Shown one piece after another: positions 12,359 through 13,292 of a stretch of 22,882 nt of DNA. Position 1 is the stretch's first letter; each line of letters begins with the position of its first letter. Source of the DNA: a virus; the IMG/VR virus record IMGVR_UViG_3300027902_000027, positions 1-22,882 of that record. One strand, written 5' to 3'. The translations under genes and the position numbers were made by a program. The notes under the pieces are model-generated. The model was not told the origin of the DNA, did not search any database, and saw only the letters and a list, made by a program, of their open reading frames with translations.

Positions 12359-12640
12359 ATGGCAAGCAAGTATCCGTTCCCGTACGCGTCGGTGGAGAGC
12401 GCAATCCAGGATCACTGGAAGAAGTGCACCGATGTGACGGGAGACTCGGCGCGTGACGTGGCCATTCGGATCGTCAACGCCGGCTGGTACCAGCTCCTGC
12501 AGAGGAACGACCAGAACGACAAGGCGGCATTGGCCAGGGAGCGCGTGAAGAGGGTCATGGAGCTCGCGGCGAACGATCCAGCCCTGAAGGCCAAGATCGA
12601 CGCGGCGACGGCGTCGGCGCTGAAGGTCTCGAAGAAGTAG
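12359..12640 (+). CDS. hypothetical helical protein, 93 aa
   Basis: The ATG follows AAGGAG by about 8 bases, and a GCGGG/CCCGC hairpin (12327-12344) lies just before that site. The protein is helical throughout: an aromatic start (YPFPYASVESAIQDHWKK), then an Ala/Lys/Asp-rich helix pair (AALARERVKRVMELAANDPALKAKIDAATASALKVSKK). It is the last gene before the terminator. The function is unknown. Confidence 0.8.
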   Translation: MASKYPFPYASVESAIQDHWKKCTDVTGDSARDVAIRIVNAGWYQLLQRNDQNDKAALARERVKRVMELAANDPALKAKIDAATASALKVSKK

Positions 12641-12653
12641 ACGCTGACGCGAC

Positions 12654-12695
12654 AGGGGGACGTCGTCTTCGAAAGGGGGCGGCGTCCCCCTTTTT
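12654..12695 (+). terminator. intrinsic terminator of the micro-gene operon
   Basis: A 9-bp perfect stem AGGGGGACG (12654-12662) pairs with CGTCCCCCT (12683-12691) across a 20-base loop and runs into TTTTT, 14 bases after the last stop. Confidence 0.85.
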
Positions 12696-12784: not shown

Positions 12785-12888
12785 CTCTGCTGAGGGTCAC
12801 ATCACAGGACTTCAAAGTCCTTGGGGAGCTGGGGAGGACACAACAATGCCTGGGGCGGGAAGGGGGGCACACTTGAAGTCCACTTTCT

Positions 12889-12911
12889 AACTCGTTCATT
12901 CTAAAAGAGTT
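12889..12911. repeat. 23-base palindromic element, copy 1
   Basis: Arms AACTCGTT and AAAGAGTT flank a 7-base CATTCTA centre, with one arm mismatch. The same centre occurs in two other copies, which suggests a protein-binding site. Confidence 0.65.
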
Positions 12912-12973
12912 GCATTTCAAAGTCTACTGTGGGTCCTGTGCTGCGCAGCCACATTGCACCCCACCCTCAGTGT

Positions 12974-12996
12974 ATCTCGTTCATTCTAAACGAGTT
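12974..12996. repeat. 23-base palindromic element, copy 2
   Basis: Arms ATCTCGTT and AACGAGTT around the CATTCTA centre. It lies inside the left arm of the large inverted repeat. Confidence 0.65.
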
Positions 12997-13016
12997 ACGC
13001 GTTTGGGGTGTGAAAA

Positions 13017-13031
13017 AAGTGCTCGGCACTT
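13017..13031 (-). terminator. AAGTGC hairpin, possible minus-strand terminator
   Basis: AAGTGC and GCACTT with a 3-base loop are followed, on the minus strand, by a run of T (GCACTTTTTT). This would stop minus-strand transcripts, or act only as part of the large inverted repeat. Confidence 0.4.
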
Positions 13032-13115
13032 ATATTATATATAAAAGAATAATGGACATCAACGCCCCCTTTCCTCTCCTATATATATATGGATTCCAAA
13101 GGAAGTAAGAATTCA

Positions 13116-13138
13116 AAGTGCCGAAAAGTTAAGCACTT
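13116..13138. repeat. second AAGTGC/GCACTT inverted repeat
   Basis: The same 6-base arms as at 13017-13031 occur here with an 11-base loop, in the right arm of the large inverted repeat. Confidence 0.55.
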
Positions 13139-13156
13139 GTGTGCCAGCACACTGCT

Positions 13157-13179
13157 AACCCGTTTAGAATGAACAAGTT
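13157..13179. repeat. 23-base palindromic element, copy 3 (inverted)
   Basis: Read on the minus strand, arms AACTTGTT and AACGGGTT flank the CATTCTA centre. The changes relative to the other copies keep the arms pairable with G-T pairs. Confidence 0.65.
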
Positions 13180-13292
13180 ATGAAGAGGGTGGGGTGCAAA
13201 ATTCTATGTGCAGCTCGTGCTCCCCGTGTAGCACAAAGTCTTTGACTGCCATGGATCCCGGTGCCTGGGGATCATGGCCAGCTCTTTGGACC

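Follow-up and report, generated by a model that had tools for sequence, protein, structure and literature searches.

We report that a ~300-base intergenic stretch in the genome of an uncultivated bacterial virus carries paired dyads around the genome's most easily melted DNA, and propose that this locus is a replication origin joined to an early promoter in a family of lytic-type tailed phages with genomes of ~46-51 kb, a reading to which we assign a probability of about 0.55. The DNA analysed is a record of 22,882 bases from IMG/VR, whose whole length is referred to below as the window. The original prediction had recognized here a large inverted repeat with an AT-rich centre; among the readings that it offered, that of a candidate replication origin or control locus is the best supported, and the prediction as a whole is partly borne out.

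Anatomy of the locus

The features of the locus and its gene setting are as follows.

Left of the element, minus strand: terminase, portal and capsid genes
12359..12640, plus strand: small gene of 93 aa, an open frame upstream of the element
12654..12691, plus strand: intrinsic terminator closing the 93-aa gene, a 17-pair stem followed by a T run
12888..12912, minus strand: dyad 1, TAACTCGTTCATTCTAAAAGAGTTG, a direct repeat; score 14.0 with the held-out matrix, third in the window
12954..12968, plus strand: left outer 15-nt arm, its sequence not kept in relatives
12973..12997, minus strand: dyad 2, TATCTCGTTCATTCTAAACGAGTTA; held-out score 18.1, top site of the window
13017..13031: small hairpin AAGTGCTCGGCACTT bordering the core on its left
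13030..13090: AT-rich core with TATATTATATATA, the presumed DNA-unwinding element
13065-13079 and 13080-13090: parts of the core, namely the pyrimidine tract CCCCCTTTCCTCTCC and TATATATATAT
13156..13180, plus strand: dyad 3, TAACCCGTTTAGAATGAACAAGTTA, on the far side of the core; held-out score 16.9, second in the window
13185..13199, minus strand: right outer 15-nt arm, an inverted copy of the left arm
13293..13321, plus strand: strong extended -10 sigma-70 promoter, TTGATT-17-TATAAT, directed towards the early genes
13465..13941, plus strand: first recognised gene past the promoter, 158 aa, of a fast-evolving conserved family (profile search, alignment A3)
Right of the element, plus strand: small early genes, QueC, an exonuclease, a Sak4-like protein and QueD

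The two outer 15-nt arms are perfect inverted copies and each is followed after exactly 5 bases by an imperfect palindrome (12974-12996 and 13157-13179), just as had been claimed from the letters alone; the AAGTGC/GCACTT pairs also lie on both sides of the core, with AAGTGC and GCACTT found again to its right at ~13115-13138. The GTGTG tract, which had been counted as a further inverted element, is no such thing, as GTGTG stands on the same strand on both sides. The centre is AT-rich in a GC-rich genome (~40% GC in the core versus ~60%), and both the least stable 60-nt and the least stable 150-nt segments of the window begin in the core. When folded as single-stranded DNA, the 246 nt reach -51.9 kcal/mol against -22 +/- 3.4 for shuffled sequences (z -8.7, with 0 of 200 shuffles equally good), which excludes chance for the inverted repeat; its 44-nt arms are 84% complementary. 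The first dyad, a third copy, falls outside the interval originally delimited (12954-13199), and the terminator at 12654 and the promoter at 13293-13321 bound the functional unit better than do the 15-nt ends. This promoter matches the consensus at 10 of 12 positions and has the additional TG. A second promoter-like site, TTGATG-17-TATAAT, is seen on the minus strand in the AT-rich core (13034-13062), reading leftward.

L022, L037 and other relatives have homologues of the 93-aa gene in the corresponding position (35-42% identity by tblastn). The complete relatives, of 46-51 kb, encode a UDG-fused family A DNA polymerase, a DUF3987 protein and an HTH-like protein, and several of their contigs close into circles with overlaps of 90-127 nt. 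The terminase alignment brought in 49 loci, almost all of them in one clade at 57-65% identity; in L007 the terminase reading frame (875-2560) has one internal stop, either a sequencing error or a broken gene. Scans for relatives with other proteins gave one usable result for the portal protein and none for the product of the gene at 13465. The window also has a QueC-like gene (15496-16146) and a QueD-like gene (22279-22737) and the relatives have additional FolE-like and QueE-like proteins, assigned from sequence without a profile scan; together these genes suggest 7-deazaguanine modification of the DNA.

A dyad motif at one syntenic place in related phages

Blastn searches with the element recovered no match among phage records and nothing similar in the relatives, an exact 19-mer scan of IMG/VR found none, and an Rfam search gave no match. 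About 17 related uncultivated phages (46-51 kb) have a matching intergenic locus at a single syntenic place, in the order terminator, 25-bp dyad, AT-rich core, second dyad and strong sigma-70 promoter. The consensus of the 25-bp dyad is TAACTC[G/C]TT..CAAAGGAGTTA. Most of the relatives displayed have a terminator-like hairpin with a T run at the matching place, and a promoter similar to that of the window adjoins the element in those that extend that far.

The motif was obtained de novo, with a program written for this analysis, from 17 syntenic regions picked by eye on the basis of synteny and AT-richness. The search converged on a 25-bp dyad near TAACTCGTTGAnAACAAAGGAGTTA with a score of 253.8, as against 154.7-163.4 in six dinucleotide shuffles. 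For site scans each genome was tested in turn with a matrix from which it had been held out. In the 22.9-kb window the three dyads are the top three sites, the next scoring 0.7. The top one or two genome-wide sites lie at the element in G002, G005, G007, G008, G009, G012 and G015, and six of the eight complete relatives have their top genome-wide sites at this locus. The G009 site scores 6.1, below its local-shuffle maximum of 9.5, and that of G002 (10.3) is barely above its maximum of 9.8; hence both rest on position. No dyad was found by the held-out scan in G006 and G011. By this measure the repeats are specific to one locus per genome, as would be expected of an origin, except in the clade of L011, L018 and L052, a single supported group in the terminase tree (100/99), where no dyad is recognisable though the AT-rich core and the promoter are kept.

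Two dyads usually flank the core, with an inner spacing of 106-198 bp (255 in L256). Relatives differ in how the two copies are oriented, both direct and inverted arrangements being seen. Ten of 14 genomes have 53-65 bp between the right dyad and the -35 element, the exceptions being L014 (44), L049 (89), the window (112) and L256 (178).

Duplex stability, folding and skew

In seven of the eight complete genomes the core has the lowest duplex stability when 60-nt segments are compared, and likewise in seven of eight with 150-nt segments; both sizes agree in six, and all eight have an adjoining AT-rich segment of lowest stability by one or both sizes, as an origin would require. A significant long hairpin is restricted to the window, L256, L022, L011 and L044, and is weak or absent in the other relatives. 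Thus the inverted-repeat conservation that had been proposed as a check fails for the long hairpin, significant in these five records only, and holds for the dyads flanking an AT-rich core. The skew switch anticipated at 13.0 kb is not observed either, as the cumulative skew of the window turns at ~9.5-10 kb instead. In G005, G007 and G009 (rotated, ~22-24 kb) the maximum of the detrended cumulative GC skew comes within ~200 bp of the element, with a terminus-like sign opposite to that expected for an origin; in the other genomes the extremes are away from the element. GC skew gives no support for the origin reading.

Inheritance of the element in a natural recombinant

Scanning IMG/VR with a degenerate form of the motif brought in L256, which is part of G015, a circular contig of 43,094 bases. 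Its two dyads are its only strong sites and flank a core of TATATATA plus CTCTCT, in the same nested layout as in the window. The G015 terminase forms a very long branch in the terminase tree, far diverged from the clade, and other G015 proteins match those of the clade: QueC (E value 1e-61), FolE (5e-46), the polymerase (1e-39), DUF3987 (5e-76) and the HTH-like protein (3e-12). The near-complete genomes G016 and G017 (47 and 52 kb), which are 60% terminase relatives of G015, share structural genes with the clade and have a different replication module, with no DUF3987 match and a weak polymerase match; the 22-kb fragment G018 also gave no DUF3987 match. No site in G016 exceeds 9, and G017 has a single lone site of 9.9, so that neither has a confident dyad pair, and the terminase-flanking regions of both are free of dyad sites. 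As G015 has both the dyads and the clade module and G016 and G017 lack both, the element follows the early/replication module rather than the packaging genes. This co-inheritance with the cognate replication genes, a feature expected of an origin, is seen in one recombinant lineage.

Proposed mechanism and candidate initiators

We infer that the 25-bp dyads flanking the core are bound by a putative phage-encoded initiator, probably a product of the early/replication module, and that the core (TATATATA plus the pyrimidine tract) would then melt. The DUF3987 helicase/primase-like protein, whose family has been predicted to comprise helicases of mobile elements (PMC5862659), and the UDG-fused family A DNA polymerase would begin replication at the melted core. 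The upstream terminator and downstream promoter may insulate the locus while coupling initiation to early transcription. An origin joined to an early promoter would explain why the dyads come in pairs around a core prone to unwinding, behind an insulating terminator, and why the element occupies a single locus per genome and is inherited together with replication genes.

Two proteins are candidates for the initiator, the first-gene family (alignment A3) and the HTH protein adjoining DUF3987. The 158-aa first-gene protein has no Pfam or PHROG match; its structural model has a mean pLDDT of 87.8, and the best result of a fold search with it was the HNH endonuclease 1u3e at a non-significant E value of 0.67. 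We regard it as a candidate DNA-binding protein. Its HNH-like centre is absent from the dyad-less clade, and in L256 the dyads are present, yet the first-gene homologue was not found in its locus; the co-variation of this centre with the dyad, with one clade for it and L256 contrary, is a lead. The HTH protein is found in dyad-bearing and dyad-less genomes alike. It is conceivable, if rather unlikely, that the locus represents an origin class in which an undescribed initiator, encoded beside the origin, recognises palindromic dyads flanking an unwinding core and a DnaB-less replisome of DUF3987 and UDG-fused PolA serves the origin.

Alternative explanations

The main rival of the origin reading is a site of early-promoter control, in which the dyads would be an operator or enhancer for a phage or host regulator of the promoter at 13293, possibly one that loops across the AT-rich core, with no origin at the locus. 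Palindromic dyads fit a dimeric regulator, and the fairly regular distance between right dyad and -35 element suits a transcription-control site just as well as an origin. Unrelated viral contigs have dyads much like these, TAACTC..GAGTTA, scattered between genes, and cluster O mycobacteriophages have a different dispersed dyad of unknown function (PMC4351075). The module common to G015 and the clade also includes early genes that have no part in replication, and because the early module contains both kinds of function the data do not separate the two readings. Several features argue against control of the promoter: it is close to consensus, so activation would be unnecessary; the dyads do not overlap it; the spacing is as long as 178 in L256 and 112 in the window; the distances between the two dyads show no evident helical phasing; and each genome has the motif at a single locus, adjoining the least stable DNA. 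On balance we consider this explanation improbable, though it is the strongest competitor.

The original prediction had also entertained a terminase-related site, and a cos or pac site for packaging or cleavage by the phage terminase would be in keeping with the position of the locus, which lies within ~2-4 kb of the terminase genes and in L256 adjoins the small subunit. The element goes with the replication module, not the terminase, being present in G015 despite its far-diverged terminase and absent from the terminase relatives G016 and G017. Moreover, contig ends are scattered and circles are joined away from the element, except in G005, where the join is ~110 bp past the promoter. We therefore regard a packaging site as very unlikely.

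There is equally little in favour of a site for site-specific recombination (attP or dimer resolution), with the dyads as core sites of a recombinase. Inverted arms around a short asymmetric spacer might be taken to resemble the cores of tyrosine recombinases; against this, the arms are nearly palindromic, the orientation of the two copies varies, and neither a tyrosine integrase (PF00589, 0 of 12 records) nor a serine resolvase (PF00239, 0 of 11) was found in the records searched, some of them incomplete. The suggested partition site has no ParA/ParB partner (PF02195, PF13614) in any of 11 records.

That the long hairpin or cruciform is itself functional, for instance as a mobile element with 15-nt ends or as a structured transcript, is the least probable reading, as the strong fold in the window and L256 has no significant counterpart in most relatives, which largely refutes it, and there is neither a second copy in the window nor an Rfam match. 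The MITE-like element of the original prediction was rejected: it would need several copies with conserved ends, and there is a single copy in the window, one locus per genome at a conserved syntenic position, with 15-base ends that differ among relatives.

Comparison with known systems

In origins of the herpes simplex oriS and SV40 type, an AT-rich centre is flanked by initiator sites or has them inverted around it. The likeness of the phage locus to these is an analogy of layout only, the viruses and proteins being unrelated. Closer to the present family, Caudoviricetes sp. ctLwi270 (MW202554) and the Fredfastierviridae (PaMx41) have distantly related terminase and/or DUF3987 proteins and the same divergent late and early arms, but neither genome contains a dyad above background.

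Among known phage origins, oriL and oriR of the Bacillus phage SPP1 have initiator-binding repeats adjoining an AT-rich unwinding element (PMC6316719), as does our locus with its putative binding sites. In SPP1 the repeats are direct, one of the origins lies within gene 38 and the system is that of gp38/gp39/DnaB-type gp40, whereas the dyads here are palindromic and stand on either side of a core in an intergenic gap, and a family search found no DnaB member. The origin of the PLE satellite, with RepA_N iterons, likewise has semi-palindromic repeats in a non-coding region, where they are required for replication (PMC7145576); in contrast, the phage locus has two or three dyads flanking a core rather than an iteron array, and no RepA_N protein was identified.

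Similar dyads in other contigs

In nine viral contigs (L150, L158, L190, L215, L219, L230, L251, L258 and L268) we observed many similar 25-bp dyad pairs (TAACTCGTTGATACTCAACGAGTTA), placed ~50 bp apart with a GC-rich hairpin between them and recurring about every 1 kb between genes; these contigs encode the Gp88, DUF932 and PhoH families among others. Low-GC viral contigs (L149, L156, L171, L174, L192, L201 and L232, as well as L176, L180 and L202) have dyads of the form TAACCCGTTGAAAATCAACGAGTTA or TAACCCCTTTATTTACAAGGAGTTA at a single place. L097, L126, L142 and L147, from one MAG labelled Candidatus Nealsonbacteria bin.20, contain several near-identical non-palindromic dyads (TAACTCGTTKTCCT.AAAGGAGTTA). 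A scan of genome contigs with a degenerate palindrome returned 64 loci from many phyla, mostly perfect palindromes; since most resemble ordinary hairpins or terminators, they were not used as evidence on the host.

Implications

To our knowledge, the origins of most uncultivated phages have not been located. For an entire phage family the locus described here supplies a predicted origin, whose motif is sufficiently specific to be tested, and the natural recombinant G015 links this element to the replication genes. The element also offers a concrete substrate both for an initiator search and for testing the function of DUF3987. If the origin belongs to a class whose initiator is encoded in the fast-evolving neighbouring gene, origin and initiator would change together.
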